Assembly (NCBI GenBank): GCA_017471245.1
Contig: JAFUVB010000013.1
Coordinates: forward strand, 1-64,000
Direction of reading: 5' to 3'
From: Prevotella sp.
GTDB lineage: Bacteria; Bacteroidota; Bacteroidia; Bacteroidales; Bacteroidaceae
DNA length: 64,000 nt
In this document: positions 1,366 to 47,279 of the stretch, piece by piece
How positions within the stretch are numbered: the first letter of the stretch is position 1
Layout of the letters: each line of letters opens with the position of its first letter
Notes under the pieces: generated by a model
The model's input: only the letters and a program-made list of their open reading frames with translations
Told to the model about the DNA's origin: nothing
The model's database searches: none
Translations under genes and position numbers: made by a program

Positions 1366-1600
1366 ACTGATGTGCATATACGCATAACAATCTGGTTTCC
1401 AATCCGTTACTCCATCCGCTGCGTTACCCGCTGCGTTACCTGCTGCGTTACCATCCGCGTGTTTTTATGTCATGCTTAAAGACGTAAGAGGCAAAATAAT
1501 GCAGAACGTGGCGCAGCAGATGACGCAGCGGGTAACGCAGCAGGTAACGCAGAGAATTTTACAACATGCTGACAATCAACGCTTTATGCACATACTCACA
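1366..1600. repeat. Large palindromic element, copy 1 (arms made of 12-bp GTAACGCAGCRG repeats)
   Basis: Two facing arrays, CTGCGTTACC units at about 1418-1452 and the complementary GGTAACGCAG units at about 1512-1552, are surrounded by outer arms that also pair imperfectly (TGTGCATATACGCAT near 1371 against a complementary stretch near 1580-1597). The central spacer of about 60 bp is unlike the one in copy 2. A 34-codon frame at 1499-1603 on the plus strand reads MQNVAQQMTQRVTQQ and onward, and similar frames exist in copy 2 (44811-45078). I see no transposase gene. Whether the peptide or the foldable DNA/RNA matters is unknown. Confidence 0.75.
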
Positions 1601-1689: not shown

Positions 1690-1821
1690 TCAAAACCTAT
1701 GCTTTCACCCCTCAATATCTATGCTTTTGAGCTCCAAAACCTATGCTTTTGAATGCCAAAACCTATGATTTTGAGCTTCAAAACCTATGCTTTTGAACTC
1801 CGAAACCTATGCTTTTGGGCA
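1690..1821 (+). repeat. 22-bp-period array, six units, core CAAAACCTATGCTTTTG
   Basis: TATG recurs at 1698, 1720, 1742, 1764, 1786 and 1808, an exact 22-bp spacing. Each unit is a 17-bp core whose ends CAAAA and TTTTG are complementary, followed by a 5-bp variable spacer (CCCCT, AGCTC, AATGC, AGCTT, AACTC, GGCAT). The period is not a multiple of three, which argues against coding. It ends about 40 bp from the 3' end of the aldehyde dehydrogenase gene. The same core in reverse orientation forms the array at 44626-44784. Confidence 0.9.
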
Positions 1822-8324: not shown

Positions 8325-9617
8325 TCAGCGTGAAAGCGAAGCCATCCAACGCCTCACTTCACTCCAGCGGTAATAGGGTGCGCTGTCAGTTGCTAATGGG
8401 ATCGTGCGTTCTGTTTCATTATACACGAACTTCACCAACACGTCATCGGCTGAACTTACACCGTTTTTCCTGTAGAAAACCACTTGCAGGTTGGCTGCCA
8501 TGGGAGTGACCTGATAATTAGCCCAATGCTTCCAGGCATCGCGATAATTCTGGGGCGTGCCGTTGCAACCACTCAGTTGGAGCAGGTAAGCAAGCGAAGC
8601 AAGATTGGTGTCATGCCCAAAGCGAAGCGTAACTGCAGGCTTTCCCGTCTGTATCACACTGTCGGCCTGGCTCACGATGTCTTCCACGATGCGGCGGGCA
8701 TTACGGTGATAGCGGCGCGAACATCCCGGCAGGATGCCATAGGCATACAAGTCTTCTGCATTATCCCACTGCCACAGCCTGAACAGTTCATCATGGGTGA
8801 AGAGATTTCGGAACGATATGCCAAGCTCTGGAAGGTTTTGCATGTCGGCAAAAATATGCCAGCAGTCGAGCATCATCTGCCTTCCTGCTGCCTCGTCACG
8901 ATAGTTGGTGAACAGTAGTTCAAGAAAACGTGAGGGCTGAACAATGCTGTCGGTAAACTGACGGAACTGTTCTTTGCGCAGCGAATCACACTCGCCCTCT
9001 GCCACTTCTTCCTTGTTTACCAACACGGGCATAAAGCGCGCTGCCGACTGCATGGTGATATCGAGCGTGGGGTTCAACGCCCTGAGTTCCATGCAACAGT
9101 TCGCCATACTAATAGCACAGCGCATGGCTGTGGATGAACGGGCTTCTATGTGAATCGGCTTAGAGAGCAACGACTGATACTGTCGATACATCCGGGCTGC
9201 TATCTGCCTGTGCTGCCGTGCGCCTAACAACGAGAGCGCACCGTCGTTGCCCTGCGAATAGTCAAAACATCTCTGCATCCGTGAAAGCACATCCTTGCCA
9301 AAATCGGTGAGCTGATGCCCGGTGAGCAAGGCAATGACCGATTCATACTTCTTATTGGAAGTGAGGAAACGAGAACCGTGCCGGCCATAGTGGCTTATAT
9401 AAAACGGCTCATAGCCGGCAGGGGCAGCCGTGTATTGGTAGCCGGCAGGAACGCCGGGGTAATTGTAATAATAGCCTGCATACTGCATTTCCTGCTTCGA
9501 AATATCCTCCGAAGCTTGCTCTTCGGCCATTGCAAGACCTTCAGTCTGAGCCATTGCCGACAGCGCACTCGCCCAAATGGCAACGCTGGTGATGATGCTT
9601 ACAACCAATCTTTTCAT
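8325..9617 (-). CDS. Secreted histidine-type acid phosphatase (branch 2, phytase-like)
   Basis: Exported phosphomonoesterase that would use a phosphohistidine intermediate. Residues 1-23 form a signal peptide (MKRLVVSIITSVAIWASALS, cleavage after AMA). The RHGSRF motif carries catalytic His80, and FGHDTNLA carries the proton-donor pair His335-Asp336. Length, 430 residues, fits Bacteroides relatives often annotated as histidine-type phosphatases; inositol-phosphate phosphatases of the MINPP type usually have HAE rather than HD, so phytase activity is only possible. I chose the ATG at 9617 because the longer frame to 9686 puts 23 charged and polar residues before the signal peptide. It lies between the gls genes and SusCD, separated from the latter by a hairpin and a promoter. 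Confidence 0.88.
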   Translation of the reverse strand: MKRLVVSIITSVAIWASALSAMAQTEGLAMAEEQASEDISKQEMQYAGYYYNYPGVPAGYQYTAAPAGYEPFYISHYGRHGSRFLTSNKKYESVIALLTGHQLTDFGKDVLSRMQRCFDYSQGNDGALSLLGARQHRQIAARMYRQYQSLLSKPIHIEARSSTAMRCAISMANCCMELRALNPTLDITMQSAARFMPVLVNKEEVAEGECDSLRKEQFRQFTDSIVQPSRFLELLFTNYRDEAAGRQMMLDCWHIFADMQNLPELGISFRNLFTHDELFRLWQWDNAEDLYAYGILPGCSRRYHRNARRIVEDIVSQADSVIQTGKPAVTLRFGHDTNLASLAYLLQLSGCNGTPQNYRDAWKHWANYQVTPMAANLQVVFYRKNGVSSADDVLVKFVYNETERTIPLATDSAPYYRWSEVRRWMASLSR

Positions 9618-9709
9618 TCGCCTATAAAATAATCCTTTCCATTCTGAAACCGGTGGTTCAGAAAATGGCAATCCAAAAATGAACAACGTCAGTCACGCGA
9701 GGTGACGCA

Positions 9710-10702
9710 TCAAGACTTATCGCGATAGATCACCTTGTTGGCTCCGCTGGTGATTTTCAGTGCTTCGGGATGCTCTCTGATGAAGCTGTCGATGTGGCGG
9801 ATGCGCTTCTGCTCAAGTATCTCGTCTACGGCAATCAGGATTCCCGTCTCCTCCACCTCGCCGAATCCCTCGTTGATGGCAGTGCCGAAGAGTTTCATTG
9901 TGGGCGACAGTCCCATGTAGGCATTCACGAGCGGCGGGATGTTATAGCCCATCTTGCGGATCTCTCCGTTCAGGATGCGGTAGTCCTCCTTGAAGTTCTT
10001 GCCGCAGAAGAGTGTTTCCAGCTCTTTCGGATCGGCCTCTAATTTGAGCGGACACATCGGGACAATCAGGTTTTCCTTGTCGTCGAAGTGCTTTTTCAGG
10101 AAATAGAGAATCATGTCGCGCCCGCGGCGGATATAAGACGGATACATGGTCATCTTTCCGAAGAAATATTTCAGGTTGGGATTCAGCACGGTGAGCGCGC
10201 CAAGTCCGTCCCAGAGGTTGTCGAGTGCGAAGATGCTCTTGGTGTTCTTCTGCACATTCTGGTATTCCAACGACACAAACGACCGTCCCAGCTCCACCGT
10301 GTAAGGCATATAGTCACGCAGGAACTTCTCAGAAAAATGGAACATGTGGCTTGTAGCCAGCTTGGGCTGACCGTCTGCTCCCATCGCCCAGTCGCGCCCG
10401 TGCAGATAGCGGTAGCCGCCGATAATCTCCTCGGCTTCAGGATTCCACACAATCAGCTGCTTGTAGCAATTGTCGCAGGTATCGAACTCGTCGATGTCCT
10501 TCTCCTTGCCAGTGCCGCCGCCTGCCTCACGGAATGCGATTTCGCGCAGTCGGCCAATCTCGTCCATCACGTGCGGTGCATTGTGAGCCGTTACGATATA
10601 GATTTCATTGTTGCTCTTGTTGGTCATTCGGAGCTGCCGTTCCGGAGTTAGTTCACTCTTGAGAATCTCTTTACTGACGGGAGGAATGATGGGTTGTTCC
10701 AT
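9710..10702 (-). CDS. glsB: Glycine N-acyltransferase of glycine-lipid synthesis (GlsB-like, GNAT/OlsB fold)
   Basis: Predicted to attach a 3-hydroxy fatty acid to glycine, giving the commendamide-type intermediate of Bacteroides glycine lipids; this is the role of GlsB in B. thetaiotaomicron. The 330-residue protein shows the OlsB/hemolysin-like acyltransferase pattern: YIVTAHNAPHVMDEIGRLREIAFREAGGGTG at the start (residues 34-64), EIIGGYRYLHGRDW around residue 92, ELGRSFVSLEYQ, and LWDGLGALTVLNPNLKYFFGKMTMYPSYI in the second half. Directly upstream on the same strand, 36 bp away, is the PlsC-like partner, the same pairing as glsA/glsB. Identification rests on this pairing plus family resemblance. 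Confidence 0.85.
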   Translation of the reverse strand: MEQPIIPPVSKEILKSELTPERQLRMTNKSNNEIYIVTAHNAPHVMDEIGRLREIAFREAGGGTGKEKDIDEFDTCDNCYKQLIVWNPEAEEIIGGYRYLHGRDWAMGADGQPKLATSHMFHFSEKFLRDYMPYTVELGRSFVSLEYQNVQKNTKSIFALDNLWDGLGALTVLNPNLKYFFGKMTMYPSYIRRGRDMILYFLKKHFDDKENLIVPMCPLKLEADPKELETLFCGKNFKEDYRILNGEIRKMGYNIPPLVNAYMGLSPTMKLFGTAINEGFGEVEETGILIAVDEILEQKRIRHIDSFIREHPEALKITSGANKVIYRDKS

Positions 10703-10738: not shown

Positions 10739-11566
10739 TTATAGCCTGTATACAGCATCTTGCACATATTGCGCCCACTGCACAGGTGTCTTGCTCTTGT
10801 CGAATGTCTCCCAGGGAATGGGCTTGCCGATGGTTACCTTGAAGGTATTGTGTACATTCTTGTACATTTCGTCAACAAGGAAAAGCATTGCTATATTCAC
10901 TTTCTTCACGTGCTTGTCGCAGAAGCCTGACAAGCGATAGAAGAAGTTTGAGTTCTGCCCGCTGAAATGGATAGGCACCACGTCGCGGTGATATTCCACG
11001 CTCTTCGAGATGAATGTCTTCTTCCACGGCAGGTCGCGGATTTCACCGTTGATTCTGCGCGAGCATAGTCCTGCGGGAAACATCAGCATGTGATAGTCGC
11101 TTTTGAATCCGTTCTCCACCATGGCGGGAAACGAGCGGCTCTGCGCTCCTGTCTTATTGATAGGAATACAGAGGGGTGCCAGACCGGGCAGGTTCATCAA
11201 GATATCGTTCACAAGATAGCGGAAACGACTGTCGTATTGCCTGCCGATGATGCTGCCAAGGGCAACGCCGTCGATACCGCCAAGCGGATGGTTGCTCACG
11301 AAGGTGTATAGTTTTCCGTCATCCTTGTCGGGCAGGTTCTCCTTGCCCTCCACCTGGAGCGTCATATCCAGATATTTCACGCATTCCTCAAGCCAAGGCG
11401 TCCCCGTGAGTTCCCGGTTTTCCCAGAGGAAGGCGTTCACTTGATCCTGATGGACAATGTGCTTCAGCCATTTCACAGCCAGCGAAGGTACCATCTTCGC
11501 CTTGTCGCCCATTTTGTCCTTGAGGATATTCTCGATGTCTACTGTTTTCTCCGTTATTCTATCCAT
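10739..11566 (-). CDS. glsA: O-acyltransferase of glycine-lipid synthesis (GlsA-like, PlsC/LPLAT family)
   Basis: Expected to esterify the hydroxyl of N-acylglycine with a second fatty acid at the inner membrane face. The 275-residue protein has the acyltransferase block NHPLGGIDG (residues 92-100; a variant one residue longer than the classical HX4D), a second block MLMFPAGLCSRR with the FPAG motif, and VVPIHFSGQNSNFFYRL. The start at 11566 (MDRITEKTVDIENIL) is preferred over the frame's first ATG at 11644, because the extra residues are not family-like and would overlap the promoter. It precedes glsB and is probably cotranscribed. Confidence 0.85.
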   Translation of the reverse strand: MDRITEKTVDIENILKDKMGDKAKMVPSLAVKWLKHIVHQDQVNAFLWENRELTGTPWLEECVKYLDMTLQVEGKENLPDKDDGKLYTFVSNHPLGGIDGVALGSIIGRQYDSRFRYLVNDILMNLPGLAPLCIPINKTGAQSRSFPAMVENGFKSDYHMLMFPAGLCSRRINGEIRDLPWKKTFISKSVEYHRDVVPIHFSGQNSNFFYRLSGFCDKHVKKVNIAMLFLVDEMYKNVHNTFKVTIGKPIPWETFDKSKTPVQWAQYVQDAVYRL

Positions 11567-11585
11567 ACTGTTTAGAAACAATATG

Positions 11586-11593
11586 CAAAAATA
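11586..11593 (-). promoter_or_regulatory. Candidate -7 box for the gls genes
   Basis: Minus-strand TATTTTTG fits TAnnTTTG about 20 bp before the glsA start. No clean TTG lies 19-21 bp upstream, so support is partial. Confidence 0.4.
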
Positions 11594-11740
11594 CGCAAAT
11601 AATTTGAAAAACGTTACTTTTTGGCAAAAAATGTTACATAGCATGCAAATTTTGCTGCATTTTTCATTGTTTTCATGTTTTATTTGCGTCTACATGCCAT
11701 CGCTTCGGGAACTGATTAACGACCGAAAGCAGCAGCAACC

Positions 11741-11872
11741 ATGAATAATTGGAGTGATAAGTCATGAATAGGAGTTATAAACCACGAATAATTGAAGTGA
11801 TGAATCATGGATAGGAGTGAAAAACCATGAATAATTGAAGTGATAAAACCATGAATAGGAGTTATAAAGAAG
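11741..11872 (+). repeat. Tandem array of alternating 23- and 20-bp units
   Basis: Units beginning ATGAATAATTGAAGTGATAA and ATGAATAGGAGTTATAA alternate, with starts at 11741, 11764, 11784, 11807, 11827 and 11851. This makes a dimer period of about 43 bp repeated three times. It sits in the 660-bp gap between the gls genes and the restriction system. I do not recognise the sequence. Confidence 0.85.
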
Positions 11873-11963
11873 GAAGGAAAACGGCACATTTGCCCGATGA
11901 AATCGGCGTTTTTGATCTTCAAAAGCGTTGTAATGGAAAAGCAAAAACGTTGAGATGTAAAAG

Positions 11964-12095
11964 TAAATCAAATTGATTTGCGCGATAAATCAAATTGATT
12001 TGAAAAGTAAATTAAATTAATTTGCAAAGTAAATCAAATTGATTTGCAAAACAAATTAAATTAAATTGCTGAGTAAATTATATTAATTTGCTGCG
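11964..12095 (+). repeat. 22-bp-period array, six units, core YAAATCAAATTGATTTG
   Basis: Unit starts at 11964, 11986, 12008, 12030, 12052 and 12074 are exactly 22 bp apart. Each has a 17-bp palindrome-like core (AAATCAAATTGATTT or AAATTAAATTAATTT) and a 5-bp spacer (CGCGA, AAAAG, CAAAG, CAAAA, CTGAG, CTGCG). Core changes are often symmetric (TC..GA to TT..AA), which keeps self-complementarity. A related four-unit array lies at 31084-31171. Confidence 0.9.
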
Positions 12096-12229: not shown

Positions 12230-13084
12230 CTAAGGGATGTTTCTTAACAGTCGGTCGCTAATCCCTTTTTTCAGAATTTTCTCTTTGAACTCCTCCACCG
12301 TGGGGAACTTCTCTTCAGGTGCGCCTCCTATGATGGTCTCAATACCCTCAATTGTCGTACTGTAAATGTCTTTGAACTCCAAACCCCACCTGTCACCAAA
12401 CCACGATAACGAAAAGACACAGAAATCTACTGGATTGTCCTTGACGAAAGAAGTAACCTTTGAACAATCGGAACTGCATTGCAAATAATCCATAGCTACA
12501 TCCTGAATAACAAAGATAATCTTCCGCTTCCATGACTGAACGATCTTCCCTTTTTTATATGCCTGCTGCATCATCGTTTTGGAAAACTCATTTGCCCAGT
12601 TAATGCCATAGGTATACCTACCGTGACTGAAATCATGGTATCTCTGGAAATCTTGAATATAGGGATAAGGTGTCCCTGTTGTGCCTGCCGCTTGAATTTC
12701 TACACATTGGAAATCCCTGATTTGCTGATTACGGTCTAATTCCACAGCCACATAATCGACACTCCCCCCTACTCCCATATCCACTTCTGGTATCCACATA
12801 ACATTCTCCCAATCGGTAAGATATTTCTCGCGGATAGCATTGAACATTTGTTCCTCTTTGAATCTTTGCGGACAAATGATGACGGGCTGAAGTTCTTTCT
12901 TGTTGACACTCGCCCCGACTGTGCATATACCTACTTTGACTTCAGGTGTGCTTTTGCGAGGTTTTACGCATGTGCCATTCACGTATTTACAAAACTGTTG
13001 TTTGATGTCTAATTCAAAAGTAGCATCAATTTTTCCACAATCATGACAGAAATACTCAATTGGAGTGCGATCTATTCTTTTCAT
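12230..13084 (-). CDS. NotI-family type II restriction endonuclease
   Basis: Predicted DNA-cleaving half of a type II restriction system. The 284-residue protein resembles the NotI endonuclease family: an N-terminal metal-binding set of cysteines (Cys13, Cys16, Cys32, Cys39; NotI proteins carry a four-cysteine iron site), then VIICPQRF, and the PD-(D/E)xK-type core in the variant form seen in NotI, with Asp110 in SVDYVAV and Glu129-x-Gln131 in VEIQAAGTTGTPYPY. Its ATG overlaps the methyltransferase stop codon by four bases (ATGA), so the two are translationally coupled with the protective gene first. NotI itself cuts an 8-bp GC-only site; whether this protein shares that specificity is unknown. 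Confidence 0.82.
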   Translation of the reverse strand: MKRIDRTPIEYFCHDCGKIDATFELDIKQQFCKYVNGTCVKPRKSTPEVKVGICTVGASVNKKELQPVIICPQRFKEEQMFNAIREKYLTDWENVMWIPEVDMGVGGSVDYVAVELDRNQQIRDFQCVEIQAAGTTGTPYPYIQDFQRYHDFSHGRYTYGINWANEFSKTMMQQAYKKGKIVQSWKRKIIFVIQDVAMDYLQCSSDCSKVTSFVKDNPVDFCVFSLSWFGDRWGLEFKDIYSTTIEGIETIIGGAPEEKFPTVEEFKEKILKKGISDRLLRNIP

Positions 13085-14136: not shown

Positions 14137-14366
14137 TTCAATGTGCAAAATTAAACAATTTTTCGTGATATCCTGCTTTTTTATAAAGAAAATGATGAAA
14201 AAAGCTATTTTGATAATGCGAAGCATCCTATGTATGCCAACATACAGAAGTATAAAAATGAATGCCTCTATTCACTTCTTGGAACAGATTCTGATGCCGG
14301 AAAAATTGCACAAAATGCCATTTTTGAGAAAAAAAACAAGAAATTTGCGCTCTTTTTGATAAATTT

Positions 14367-30999: not shown

Positions 31000-31040
31000 A
31001 GCGGCGCTTTCCATTCGCGGAAGTGCCGCTTTCCTTTCTC
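31000..31040 (+). terminator. Terminator of the dcw operon
   Basis: AGCGGCGCTTTCC, loop ATTCGC, GGAAGTGCCGCT (31000-31030) folds into a stem with one bulge and one mismatch, followed by TTCCTTTCT. It lies 29 bp past the YqeY-like gene. Confidence 0.8.
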
Positions 31041-31083: not shown

Positions 31084-31171
31084 TAAATCAATTTAATTTA
31101 CCTTGCAAATCAATTTAATTTGAAAAGTAAATCAATTTAATTTACTCAGCAAATCAATTTAATTTGCTGAA
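31084..31171 (+). repeat. 22-bp-period array, four units, core YAAATCAATTTAATTTR
   Basis: Unit starts at 31084, 31106, 31128 and 31150 are exactly 22 bp apart. The 17-bp cores alternate TAAAT and CAAAT beginnings; 5-bp spacers are CCTTG, AAAAG, CTCAG and CTGAA. The core is related to but not the same as that of the 11964-12095 array (AAATCAATTTAATTT against AAATCAAATTGATTT). It lies in the 530-bp gap after the dcw terminator. Confidence 0.9.
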
Positions 31172-44153: not shown

Positions 44154-44561
44154 ATGAGAAAATATTTGATCGCCATGATTGCCGGAGCACTGACGTTTAT
44201 CACCACAAACTGGATATCGCACTATTCCTATATGCTCGATGCACTGGTGGAGAGCAGCTGCTTCTTTGCGCTCACCTATTTGGTGCTGCGCGCGTATGCC
44301 GAAGGACAGAAAACGACGGGTATCCTGAAACTATTGGTAGCCATCCTCGTGGGAAGGCTCCTGTTTGAACTGCCCCTCGTCGTCATTCCGCACGATGGTT
44401 TGCAGCCCATCATCATCCCCTTGCTTGCGATATGCGGCATCGCCCTTGCCACGTTGAACTATCGCCTGCGCGACAAGACGGTGCTCGCCATGAGCATCAT
44501 CACGCTCCTGCTGCTCGACACCTTGGGCTATGCCGCGTGGATAAAGGTGCTCTACGAGTAG
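44154..44561 (+). CDS. Small four-helix membrane protein (paralogue of the previous gene)
   Basis: Its 135 residues align with the preceding protein without large gaps (SSCFFALTYLVLRAYAEGQK, GRLLFELPLVVIPHDGLQP, ALATLNYRLRDK, YAAWIKVLYE). It begins 23 bp after its paralogue and is probably cotranscribed. Four hydrophobic segments, no signal peptide beyond the first helix. Function unknown. Downstream lies the 750-bp repeat-rich gap before gyrB. Confidence 0.75.
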   Translation: MRKYLIAMIAGALTFITTNWISHYSYMLDALVESSCFFALTYLVLRAYAEGQKTTGILKLLVAILVGRLLFELPLVVIPHDGLQPIIIPLLAICGIALATLNYRLRDKTVLAMSIITLLLLDTLGYAAWIKVLYE

Positions 44562-44625
44562 ATTTTTACGTTCATCGTTAAGCGAAGAAATGATTACACA
44601 GATGAAAAGGCATGTTTCGATGAGC

Positions 44626-44784
44626 AAAAGCATAGATTTTGGAGGATGAAAGATAATGTTTTGGTGGATAAAAGCATAGGTTTTGGAGGGTGAAAGATAA
44701 TGTTTTGCTCCGCAAAACCTATGGTTTGCAGAAAGTGAGGACTATGGCTTGCTTGAAGTGAGAGCTTCGGCTTGAATCCCTTGG
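44626..44784 (-). repeat. 22-bp-period array (reverse orientation), about seven units
   Basis: Read on the minus strand the cores are CAAAATCTATGCTTTTG, CAAAACATTATCTTTCA, CAAAACCTATGCTTTTA and CAAAACATTATCTTTCA. Plus-strand marks CATAG or ATAAT fall at 44631, 44653, 44675 and 44697, exactly 22 bp apart, and degenerate units continue to about 44784. Five-base spacers separate the cores (TCCTC, TCCAC, CCCTC). Same family as 1690-1821, and again next to a large palindrome. Confidence 0.88.
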
Positions 44785-44810
44785 AATGCATTCTCCTACA
44801 CTTAAAATCT

Positions 44811-45078
44811 GCACTGATGCGTAGATGCGCACAAAACATTGACAATCAGTGGTTTCCACAAACTGCTGCGTTACCCGCTGCGTTACCTGCTGCGTTACCT
44901 GCTGCGCTTCTTTGTTGAACACTCTTCATTTGATTCATGCTCTATGAATAAAGGAGTGAAGGCCCTCGGATCCCATGAACAACGCCGCGCAGCTGGTAAC
45001 GCAGCAGGTAACGCAGCGGGTAACGCAGCGATTCTTGGAAGCGTTTGGCTATCAGCACTTTATACGCAACTACGGCAA
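44811..45078. repeat. Large palindromic element, copy 2
   Basis: CTGCGTTACC units at about 44863-44905 face GGTAACGCAG units at about 44994-45030. Outer arms correspond to those of copy 1 (GATGCGTAGATGCGCAC at left, GCACTTTATACGCAACTAC at right). The central spacer of about 80 bp differs from copy 1. Both arms can be read as a peptide beginning M-x-N and running VTQQVTQRVTQ: the minus-strand frame at 44719-44922 and a plus-strand frame from 44975. Coding is unproven. Confidence 0.75.
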
Positions 45079-45221
45079 ATATTTGTTTTTAGCCGTGGAA
45101 AGGAAAACAAACTTCGGAGCACACGCGCCACTCCCGCCAAAGCAGTTCCTAAAAGACGGCTGAGAGGAGACGGACACCTTCTGCACTGTTTTTTTTGACT
45201 ATTTTTAGCAGGTAAATACTT

Positions 45222-45250
45222 TAGTATTTAATGTTTTTTTTGTATCTTTG
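45222..45250 (+). promoter_or_regulatory. Promoter of gyrB
   Basis: TATCTTTG (45243-45250) with a weak TAG in place of TTG (45222-45224), spacer 18 bp. The leader is about 50 nt. Confidence 0.6.
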
Positions 45251-45308
45251 CAACCTAAAAGAAAAAACACTGCATAAATAACAGCAGCAAGAATCACACG
45301 AAATCAAA

Positions 45309-47279
45309 ATGGAAGAGAATCTGAACATCGAAAACAATTATTCAGCGAGTAACATTCAGGTGCTTGAAGGACTGGAAGCAGTGCGCAAGCGCCCAGCCAT
45401 GTATATTGGTGACATCAGCGAGAAAGGTCTCCATCATCTGGTGAACGAGACCGTGGACAACTCCATCGACGAGGCGATGGCAGGCTTTTGCACCCATATC
45501 GAGGTGACAATCAACGAAGACAATTCTATCACAGTACAAGATAACGGCCGCGGTATTCCCGTCGACGAGCATGAAAAGATGCACAAGTCGGCACTTGAGG
45601 TGGTGATGACCGTGCTGCATGCCGGCGGAAAGTTCGACAAAGGCTCCTACAAAGTGTCAGGCGGACTCCACGGCGTGGGCGTGAGCTGCGTGAACGCACT
45701 GTCAAAGCGCATGCTCTCACAGGTGTATCGCGACGGCAAAGTGTATCAGCAGGAATACGAGCAGGGCAAGCCGCTCTATCCGGTGAAGGTGGTCGGCGAG
45801 ACTGATTTGCGGGGTACGCGCCAGCAGTTCTGGCCAGATCCCACAATCTTTACCACCACCGTATACCAGTGGGACATTATTGCCCGCCGCATGCGCGAGC
45901 TGGCTTTCCTCAACGCAGGCATCACTATCACGCTCACCGACTTGCGCCCCGACGAAGAAGGAAAGACCAAGCAGGAAGTATTCCACGCACAGGAAGGACT
46001 GAAAGAGTTCGTGCGCTACGTGGATCGCCACCGCACGCACCTTTTCGACGATGTGATTTACCTGAAGACCGAGAAGCAAGGCATCCCCATTGAAGTGGCT
46101 GTGATGTACAACACCGACTATTCGGAGAACATCCACTCATACGTGAACAACATCAACACCATCGAAGGTGGTACGCATCTCACCGGTTTCCGCATGGCGC
46201 TCACACGCACACTGAAAGGCTATGCCGATGCCGACCCGGCGATTTCCAAGCAGATTGAAAAGGCAAAGATTGAGATTGCCGGCGAGGACTTCCGCGAAGG
46301 TCTCACGGCCGTGATCAGCATCAAGGTGGCAGAACCGCAGTTTGAAGGGCAGACCAAGACCAAGCTCGGCAACAGCGAGGTGGCAGGAGCCGTGCAGCAG
46401 GCAGTGGGCGAGGCGCTTGCCAACTATCTTGAGGAGCACCCCAAAGAGGCAAAGCAGATTTGCGACAAGGTGATTCTCGCCGCAACAGCGCGCATCGCAG
46501 CCCGCAAAGCCCGTGAGAGCGTGCAGCGCAAGAACCCCATGAGCGGCGGCGGACTGCCCGGAAAGCTTGCCGACTGCTCGAACAAGGATCCGAAGGCATG
46601 CGAGATATTCTTAGTGGAGGGTGACTCCGCCGGTGGCTCTGCCAAGCAAGGGCGCGACCGCTACACGCAGGCAATCCTCCCGTTGCGCGGAAAAATCCTG
46701 AACGTGGAGAAGGTGCAGTGGCATCGCGTGTTCGAAGCTGAGTCGGTGATGAACATCATCCAGAGCATCGGCGTGCGCTTCGGCGTTGACGGAGAGGGCG
46801 ACCGCGAAGCCAATATCGACAAGCTGCGCTACGACAAGATCATCATCATGACCGATGCCGATGTCGATGGATCGCACATCGACACACTGATCATGACCCT
46901 CTTCTACCGCTTCATGCCGAAGGTGATTCAGGAAGGTCATCTCTATATCGCCACTCCCCCACTCTATAAGTGCACATACAAGAAATTCAGCGAGTATTGC
47001 TATACGGAGCAGCAGCGCCAGGCATTCATCGACAAGTATGTGGCAGGCGATGAGAACAGCAGTGCCTTGCACACGCAGCGCTACAAAGGTCTGGGCGAGA
47101 TGAACCCCGAGCAGCTGTGGGAGACCACCATGGATCCTTCAACACGCCTGCTCAAGCAAGTATCCATCGAGAACGCTGCCGAGGCAGATGAGATTTTCTC
47201 CATGCTGATGGGCGATGATGTGGAGCCGCGCCGCGAGTTCATCGAGCAGAATGCCACCTATGCAAATATTGATGCATAA
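45309..47279 (+). CDS. gyrB: DNA gyrase subunit B
   Basis: ATPase subunit of gyrase, which introduces negative supercoils. The 656 residues hold the GHKL ATPase (RKRPAMYIGD, VDNSIDEAMAGF, DNGRGIPV, GGLHGVGVSCVNAL), a transducer domain, and the TOPRIM region with EGDSAGGSAKQGRDR and DADVDGSHI. The end, RYKGLGEMNPEQLWETTMDP and RREFIEQNA, is typical GyrB. Length fits short-type GyrB without the E. coli insert. GyrB rather than ParE is favoured by overall sequence. It stands alone, as a single-gene unit between repeat-rich gaps. Confidence 0.96.
   Translation: MEENLNIENNYSASNIQVLEGLEAVRKRPAMYIGDISEKGLHHLVNETVDNSIDEAMAGFCTHIEVTINEDNSITVQDNGRGIPVDEHEKMHKSALEVVMTVLHAGGKFDKGSYKVSGGLHGVGVSCVNALSKRMLSQVYRDGKVYQQEYEQGKPLYPVKVVGETDLRGTRQQFWPDPTIFTTTVYQWDIIARRMRELAFLNAGITITLTDLRPDEEGKTKQEVFHAQEGLKEFVRYVDRHRTHLFDDVIYLKTEKQGIPIEVAVMYNTDYSENIHSYVNNINTIEGGTHLTGFRMALTRTLKGYADADPAISKQIEKAKIEIAGEDFREGLTAVISIKVAEPQFEGQTKTKLGNSEVAGAVQQAVGEALANYLEEHPKEAKQICDKVILAATARIAARKARESVQRKNPMSGGGLPGKLADCSNKDPKACEIFLVEGDSAGGSAKQGRDRYTQAILPLRGKILNVEKVQWHRVFEAESVMNIIQSIGVRFGVDGEGDREANIDKLRYDKIIIMTDADVDGSHIDTLIMTLFYRFMPKVIQEGHLYIATPPLYKCTYKKFSEYCYTEQQRQAFIDKYVAGDENSSALHTQRYKGLGEMNPEQLWETTMDPSTRLLKQVSIENAAEADEIFSMLMGDDVEPRREFIEQNATYANIDA

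Follow-up and report, generated by a model that had tools for sequence, protein, structure and literature searches.

Why do four intergenic arrays in one bacterial genome repeat with a step of exactly 22 bp, even though the repeated sequence is not the same in all of them? The arrays lie in the window, the whole stretch of 64,000 nucleotides of Prevotella DNA that was analysed (Table 1). Re-reading all four confirms the exact 22-bp step that the initial annotation had reported. For array D the step stands but the count does not: instead of seven units from 44626 there are the six listed in Table 1, with decayed units beyond. The two cores had also been called unrelated, which is too strong. 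Their interiors differ, but both families share the frame YAAA-N9-TTTR, and the family-2 core of arrays B and C is AAATCA-AAT-TGATTT-like.

Table 1. Arrays, neighbouring genes and adjoining repeats in the window (unit boundaries of arrays A to D were placed by eye)
Feature	Position	Strand	Description
Array A, family 1	1691..1817	+	six 17-bp cores, CAAAACCTATGCTTTTG and variants, 22-bp step, 5-bp spacers
Neighbour of array A		-	aldehyde dehydrogenase gene, stop 42 bp off
Neighbour of array A		-	serpin gene
12-bp repeats adjoining array A	1416..1552	.	inverted pair, GCTGCGTTACCY / RGGTAACGCAGC
Decayed units preceding array B	about 11920..11959	.	about two 22-bp units in register with array B
Array B, family 2	11964..12090	.	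six cores, YAAATYAAATTRATTTR type and variants, 22-bp step
Neighbour of array B	12230-13084	-	NotI-like endonuclease match
Neighbour of array B	10739-11644	-	acyltransferase
Terminator-like hairpin	31000..31030	+	upstream of array C and distinct from it
Array C, family 2	31084..31166	.	four cores YAAATCAATTTAATTTR, 22-bp step, downstream of ftsZ-yqeY
Array D, family 1, reversed	44603..44729	-	six units, 22-bp step, some decayed; more decayed units past 44735
Neighbour of array D	44154-44561	+	no Pfam match
Neighbour of array D	45309-47279	+	DNA gyrase B-type gene
12-bp repeats adjoining array D	44863..45030	.	inverted pair

Other repeats lie close to the arrays. The 12-bp repeats that adjoin arrays A and D recur near family-1 arrays in the window's genome, as judged by eye, and about 20 more pairs were counted by eye in the stretches L032-L069 (GCAGCAGGTAAC, with variants such as CACCTGCTGCGT and CCCGCACCCGAT). 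In each pair the blocks are inverted relative to one another and separated by as much as about 500 bp, and a family-1 array is often no more than a few hundred bp away. A 43-bp tandem repeat in three copies (11737-11868) is located about 95 bp from array B.

The 22-bp step is not confined to the window. The genome comprises 3.73 Mb in 114 contigs, and 844 kb of it were sampled as the window and 40 further stretches, mostly tiles from core-bearing contigs, a choice that may make rates per kb slightly high and leaves the comparison between lags unaffected. Genes in this sample were called with a home-made caller. An intergenic region of at least 60 bp passes at a given lag if a 44-bp stretch is identical at 32 or more of its 44 positions. 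At lag 22, 48 of the 317 intergenic regions pass, compared with 1, 12, 0 and 1 at lags 20, 21, 23 and 24, which bears out the genome-wide enrichment on which the initial annotation had staked its claim of a constant period. The remaining lags between 16 and 30 give nine passes at 28, two each at 18 and 26, one at 27 and none elsewhere. In the TRF output for the 844 kb, period 22 accounts for 90 of 405 rows (overlapping rows counted) and periods 20, 21, 23 and 24 for 3, 27, 4 and 7. The 21-bp units in this output include threefold 7-mer repeats, which explain the raised lags 21 and 28 at least in part. This genome has a second frequent class of minisatellite, degenerate 7-mer/21-bp repeats of the CATTGACCATTGACCGTTGAC type in intergenic DNA (L052:11884, L063:18371, L035:7227 and others). 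Among 553 genic stretches none passes at lag 22 and two pass at lag 21; since 22 is also not a multiple of three, a coding origin, already thought unlikely, is rejected.

The 16-base family-1 core AAAACCTATGCTTTTG is found at 190 places in the window's genome with up to one mismatch, and its reversed control at none. Among the viral contigs, 4 and 2 stretches each carry one exact 17-base core. At L056:1789-1968 and L055:9763-9994, two differing 22-bp arrays with unrelated units sit side by side, separated by 12 bp and by about 30 bp, respectively. More than one core family is present in at least two genomes, the window's own and G025.

A sequence-blind scan over periods of 14-34, extended beyond this genome, picked out arrays that combine periodicity with palindromy. 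For the window's genome, G025, G038, 80 named Prevotella loci and other members of the genus, in that order, the numbers of arrays are 78, 41, 9, 41 and 14 at 22 bp, 18, 2, 0, 8 and 11 at 21 bp, 2, 5, 0, 1 and 0 at 23 bp, and 41, 15, 1, 52 and 40 at 14 bp. The period of 22 bp is the top one in the window's genome, G025 and G038. In the named loci, 31 of which have 22-bp palindromic arrays, it is the top period from 15 bp up; the count at 14 bp is higher, which is evidence against the binding-protein reading proposed below. These loci also give 4 matches at 20 bp and 5 at 24 bp, and some of their matches at 22 bp are due to chance. The other genus members (33 of 38 loci, after short pieces were dropped, two each from G016 and G033 and one from G018) give 15 matches at 15 bp, 17 at 16 bp and no clear peak at 22 bp, a further point against the binding-protein reading. 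Outside the genus, a sample of 12 genomes with one stretch each, reduced by two tiny pieces to 10 genomes and 174,517 bases, has 2 matches at 22 bp.

Within the fixed period, the core varies with the species. Elsewhere the cores include TTCCCA-ACG-TGGGAA, AAAAAC-GNT-GTTTTT, GAAAAC-AAC-GTTTTC and AATTTC-GCC-GAAATT, as well as TTATACA-GACG-TGTATAA, TTGGACA-AACG-TGTCCAA and others, and are often made of two arms of about 6 bp flanking 3 bp. In a comparison of eight genomes with up to one mismatch, TTCCCAACGTGGGAA has 73, 108, 110 and 12 places in four genomes and none in the remaining four (reversed control 0-3 each), and AATTTCGCCGAAATT, with exact copies scored on both strands, has 96 places in Prevotella koreensis KCOM 3155, 88 in a second genome and none in the remaining six (control 0). 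Family 1 abounds in the window's genome, in Prevotella sp. UBA4268 (159 places with up to two mismatches; control 4) and, in the form AAAGCTATGCTTT, in G038; counts in nine further genomes, again with up to two mismatches, range from 1 to 30. A two-unit family-1 pattern occurs in 6 genomes out of 80, among them the window's own. Both the array scan and the core counts thus uphold, across many Prevotella genomes, the claim that period and architecture are kept while the sequence changes. One array of AAAAACGNTGTTTTT units (L150:12853-12960) contains a single family-1-type unit, AAAACCTATGTTTTT, which suggests that core families can intergrade.

The units are held in strict register. Among 265 family-1 cores with up to four mismatches, the centres of same-strand cores are 22 bp apart 130 times, 21 bp once and 23 bp once. 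Opposite-strand pairs no more than 120 bp apart number 83; 69 of them are spaced by 22, 44, 66, 88 or 110 bp and 14 are off register; core pairs inside one array are not independent in these counts. Since opposite-strand pairs keep the register, a unit can invert in place. Copies of a dispersed element in UBA4268 give a direct view of such a flip, because units 2 and 5 occur with TAT at their centre as well as with the inverse, ATA, between unchanged flanks. The inner bases of the family-1 core are conserved, while the spacers vary, with uneven base composition, and differ within arrays whose cores agree. In 107 of 207 units, core positions 6 and 12 are both C; at the ends, positions 1 and 17 read C-A in 50 units and T-G in 26. 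Since pairing within the core is not maintained, a dyad in double-stranded DNA fits better than a hairpin. The half-site ends are pyrimidine-purine steps in 186 (left) and 184 (right) of the 207 units, which is only suggestive, as these units were picked by their likeness to a CA...TG core. In a column-shuffle test of palindromy, just 26 of the 48 lag-22 arrays reach p<0.05, which counts against binding by a protein.

The number of units per array has a preferred value. Among 59 distinct arrays of the window's genome, a set that includes the loci L001-L030, chosen as core-bearing, six units is the commonest number (26 arrays), followed by five (17) and four (10); seven units are present in 3 arrays, three in 2 and eight in one. 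In 25 six-unit arrays, the first unit tends to have TTTCG/TTTCA on its inner side and the last unit YGAAA. Many six-unit arrays of this genome end in TTTTT-CAAAACC...GGTTTTG-AAAAA, an inverted repeat (TTTTTCAAAACC.../...GGTTTTGAAAAA).

With a probability of about one half, the arrays are clustered sites for a putative homodimeric, lineage-specific DNA-binding protein, partly spread on MITE-like elements. Conservation within a genome together with a swap between species, the constant period, the free orientation, the apparent indifference to the direction of transcription and the lost pairing point to a dyad in double-stranded DNA that is read by a homodimer. The dyad sites are in integral helical phase whatever their orientation, as in a phased binding array. 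Each array would be a cluster of near-palindromic double-stranded sites, each bound by a homodimer. Since 22 bp corresponds to two turns of B-DNA, all dimers would lie on one face of the helix, where neighbours could be in contact and form, by cooperative assembly, a short cluster of fixed size, six sites being the commonest number in the window's genome and five in UBA4268. The arrays are scattered through intergenic DNA, in part on MITE-like dispersed elements, and within a genome many of them have one or a few cores in common. The specificity of the protein would evolve with its sites; a fixed dimer-dimer geometry would let the core change and hold the spacing constant. The initial annotation had suggested either a mechanism or a protein surface measuring 22 bp, or two helical turns, and the protein surface is the reading preferred here, the protein itself being postulated. 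The genes that start toward family-1 arrays in the window's genome are ordinary and mixed. In a Pfam scan of 19 of the 24 listed array-facing genes (five were left out), 3 are without a match, 2 encode sigma factors, and neither a cognate protein nor an obvious regulator is found beside the arrays.

The chief rival is a selfish minisatellite or MITE resembling BrickBuilt, a dispersed intergenic MITE of Porphyromonas gingivalis that contains tandem repeats of 23 nt (PMC4596501). The arrays would then be internal repeats of non-autonomous mobile elements with no gain to the host, and the 22-bp unit would be what a transposase or a recombination process copies. This explanation is possible, if somewhat unlikely, and evidence for it comes from UBA4268, the nearest named genome by FtsZ (97% over the top segment, query residues 3-468) in a search that may omit records very close to the window's own. 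In the UBA4268 stretches, which were selected for holding cores, five units are present in 17 of 21 array rows, and long conserved flanks are common to 18 of the 21 (locus L273 being counted twice, in two registers). These flanks are part of a dispersed repeat of about 430 bp, the tail of which has at least 40 copies in UBA4268, one in the window's genome and none in 13 other genomes, so that selfish spread could explain much of the homogeneity, against the binding-protein reading. The published account of BrickBuilt likewise describes a leader, repeats and a tail (PMC4596501), and the inverted-repeat ends often seen in six-unit arrays of the window's genome may also speak for a mobile element. 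The single copy of the repeat found in that genome (L025, G000:C72 about 9600-9800) holds a five-unit array. Downstream of an array in G025 (L101), a flank at 14150-14340 resembles the repeat tail by eye (AAAACTC...CGCGTATTT); the core of that array differs from that of UBA4268, and a DNA search of G025 with the tail, at a cut-off of E<=0.001, comes up empty.

Against a purely selfish origin, by eye there are no conserved flanks around 42 arrays of the window's genome and no terminal inverted repeats on the 430-bp element. Among dispersed copies, the cores are better conserved than their surroundings: the mean pairwise identity of 17 element copies in UBA4268 (four of the 21 rows were dropped, three as outside the element and one as a shifted-register duplicate) is 0.857 for cores, 0.777 for spacers and 0.759 and 0.692 for the flanks. 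The unit number in the window's genome is also narrow, 3 to 8, compared with 1 to 22.8 in BrickBuilt (PMC4596501). Array C persists in place: its counterpart behind yqeY in UBA4268 (L172) has four units of the same family, the same number, although blastn finds no match in the intergenic flanks and the sequence beyond differs too. A MITE-like minisatellite may nevertheless be the vehicle of the arrays and not an alternative to the binding-protein reading, since sites bound by a transposase would have the same appearance.

Recurrence at orthologous sites was scored in two ways. A strict two-sided test over 22 regions gives 2/2 versus 4/20, which is not significant (Fisher p=0.065); the window region 44561-45308, scored in it as having no array in UBA4268, has a decayed remnant there. 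The lenient count, in which one aligned side is enough, gives 7 of 8 regions of the sample when L004 and L030, fetched as core-bearing, are omitted; the strict test is the more trustworthy. At five UBA4268 arrays (L262, L268, L269, L272 and L277), the alignment to the sample of the window's genome ends on one side of the array, perhaps at points of recombination or rearrangement, or at the ends of the fetched stretches.

A mutational bias toward tandem duplication of 22 bp, by slippage or template switching at small palindromes, would leave the arrays neutral. Several unrelated, weakly palindromic units that also step at 22 bp are consistent with it, and so is the pair L157 and L158, whose flanks are near-identical and whose arrays differ by exactly one 22-bp unit. 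This pair, one pair of species genomes and not a strain survey, agrees with the change by whole units that the constant period had implied. Template switching between palindromic arms could also invert units in register without selection, a point against the binding-protein reading. Such a bias is nonetheless improbable as the explanation, because it does not account for one core at about 190 places, for cores that are better conserved than spacers among copies, or for spacers that differ within arrays where the cores agree.

The position of the arrays relative to genes bears on a role in RNA, in which tandem hairpins would end transcription or shield mRNA ends. All four window arrays lie between co-directional genes, about 40-140 bp past the stop codon of the upstream gene, and arrays in co-directional regions are nearer to the upstream stop (median 65 bp) than to the next start (236 bp). 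The cores are near-palindromic, and 56 arrays fold better than mononucleotide shuffles, with mean z of about -3.3 on one strand and -3.5 on the other. However, these shuffles do not preserve dinucleotides and any palindrome yields such z-scores, units flip orientation, and the pairing inside family-1 cores is not kept. Arrays also occur between divergent genes: the lag-22 arrays comprise 23 in co-directional, 13 in convergent and 12 in divergent contexts, and for regions of at least 200 bp the rates are 18/94, 8/31 and 12/46, respectively. The direction of transcription thus seems irrelevant to array placement. Array C and those at L155, L157 and L158 follow a separate GC-rich hairpin, with a T run after it in L155; a consensus terminator scan gives 3 sites in the array C region, where 0.8 are expected, and no terminator-like site at array A. 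An array of intrinsic terminators, with a G+C-rich stem and a U run after the gene, is rejected on account of the lost pairing, the divergent regions and the absence of such a site at array A. Known RNA families are rejected as well, as the only Rfam match in the window, L269 and L025 is a tRNA. An RNA-level element is accordingly very unlikely. Least probable of all is intrinsic DNA curvature without a specific protein, arising from A-tracts in phase at intervals of about 11 bp, since, even though runs of A4 and T4 take turns every 11 bp in family 1 (as read from the core), the A-tract-free cores TTCCCA-ACG-TGGGAA, TTGGACA-AACG-TGTCCAA and TTATACA-GACG-TGTATAA keep the 22 bp and the inner bases of the family-1 core are conserved.

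If the binding-protein reading is carried further, a tentative picture of the Prevotella array system can be drawn, in which we place less than even confidence. A dimeric protein family with a species-shifting preference, present in several versions in some genomes, would occupy perhaps 100 or more intergenic clusters, each typically of four to six sites with a rigid spacing of two helical turns. Site and protein would co-evolve rapidly with a fixed geometry of assembly, and the result could be a species-private organisation of the chromosome or insulation of genes. A role of the arrays in chromosome organisation, in the insulation of neighbouring genes or in element mobility is conceivable. 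If a protein does read them, Prevotella would have a chromosome-scale binding system that has yet to be described, using one or a few cores in each genome, and its species-specific recognition would be a natural experiment in how DNA-binding specificity changes. Even if the arrays are selfish, a fixed 22-bp frame with changing sequence in many species is a strong constraint, and one not expected under a plain minisatellite model. In kind, the arrays are dispersed intergenic repeats, and there is a genuine possibility that they form a new type of binding system.

The initial annotation knew of no named element with this design. This holds in so far as no 22-bp palindromic arrays in Prevotella are reported in the literature searched, which lay mostly outside the subscription journals; BrickBuilt, however, is a close architectural relative, and the closest published one found (PMC4596501). 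As far as the accessible text of that report goes, BrickBuilt resembles the Prevotella arrays in belonging to Bacteroidales, in being intergenic and dispersed, in having tandem repeats with conserved and variable positions, and in the gain or loss of whole repeat units between strains; its leader and tail recall the 430-bp element of UBA4268 especially (PMC4596501). The BrickBuilt unit is 23 nt and is described without spacers (PMC4596501), while the Prevotella unit is 22 bp with spacers, and 23 is not enriched in the TRF, lag or palindromic scans. The same portion of the report describes its 1 to 22.8 repeats for one species, and no palindromic core, in-register inversion or species-wise swap of cores (PMC4596501). 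Flanks that could correspond to leader and tail are common in UBA4268, whereas in the window's genome they are restricted to the one copy.

REP, BIME and REPIN elements, which are associated with RAYT transposases, likewise consist of numerous short palindromic repeats, intergenic and mixed in orientation, according to the parts of the reports available (PMC3733652, PMC3116915). The RAYT domain PF01797 (Y1_Tnp) is found in one of six array-bearing genomes, the window's own. By eye, the GTAG/CGTC tag is absent from the family-1 and family-2 consensus and from most other cores, and GTAG occurs in the units of L164 and L173. Since neither the domain nor the tag is common to the arrays, a REP/RAYT system is rejected; to our knowledge, REPs have no fixed 22-bp phasing either. 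Iteron arrays and other multi-site operators have a similar geometry, with repeats of about 17-22 bp placed about two helical turns apart for phased binding of protein, but the family-1 core has about 190 places across the window's genome, near ordinary genes and not at one origin. The parS and matS sites and the Noc boxes are short palindromic sites scattered over the chromosome and read by a dimeric protein. They are mostly single sites with a more widely conserved sequence, whereas the Prevotella sites are grouped in arrays of about four to six and their sequence is specific to the species.
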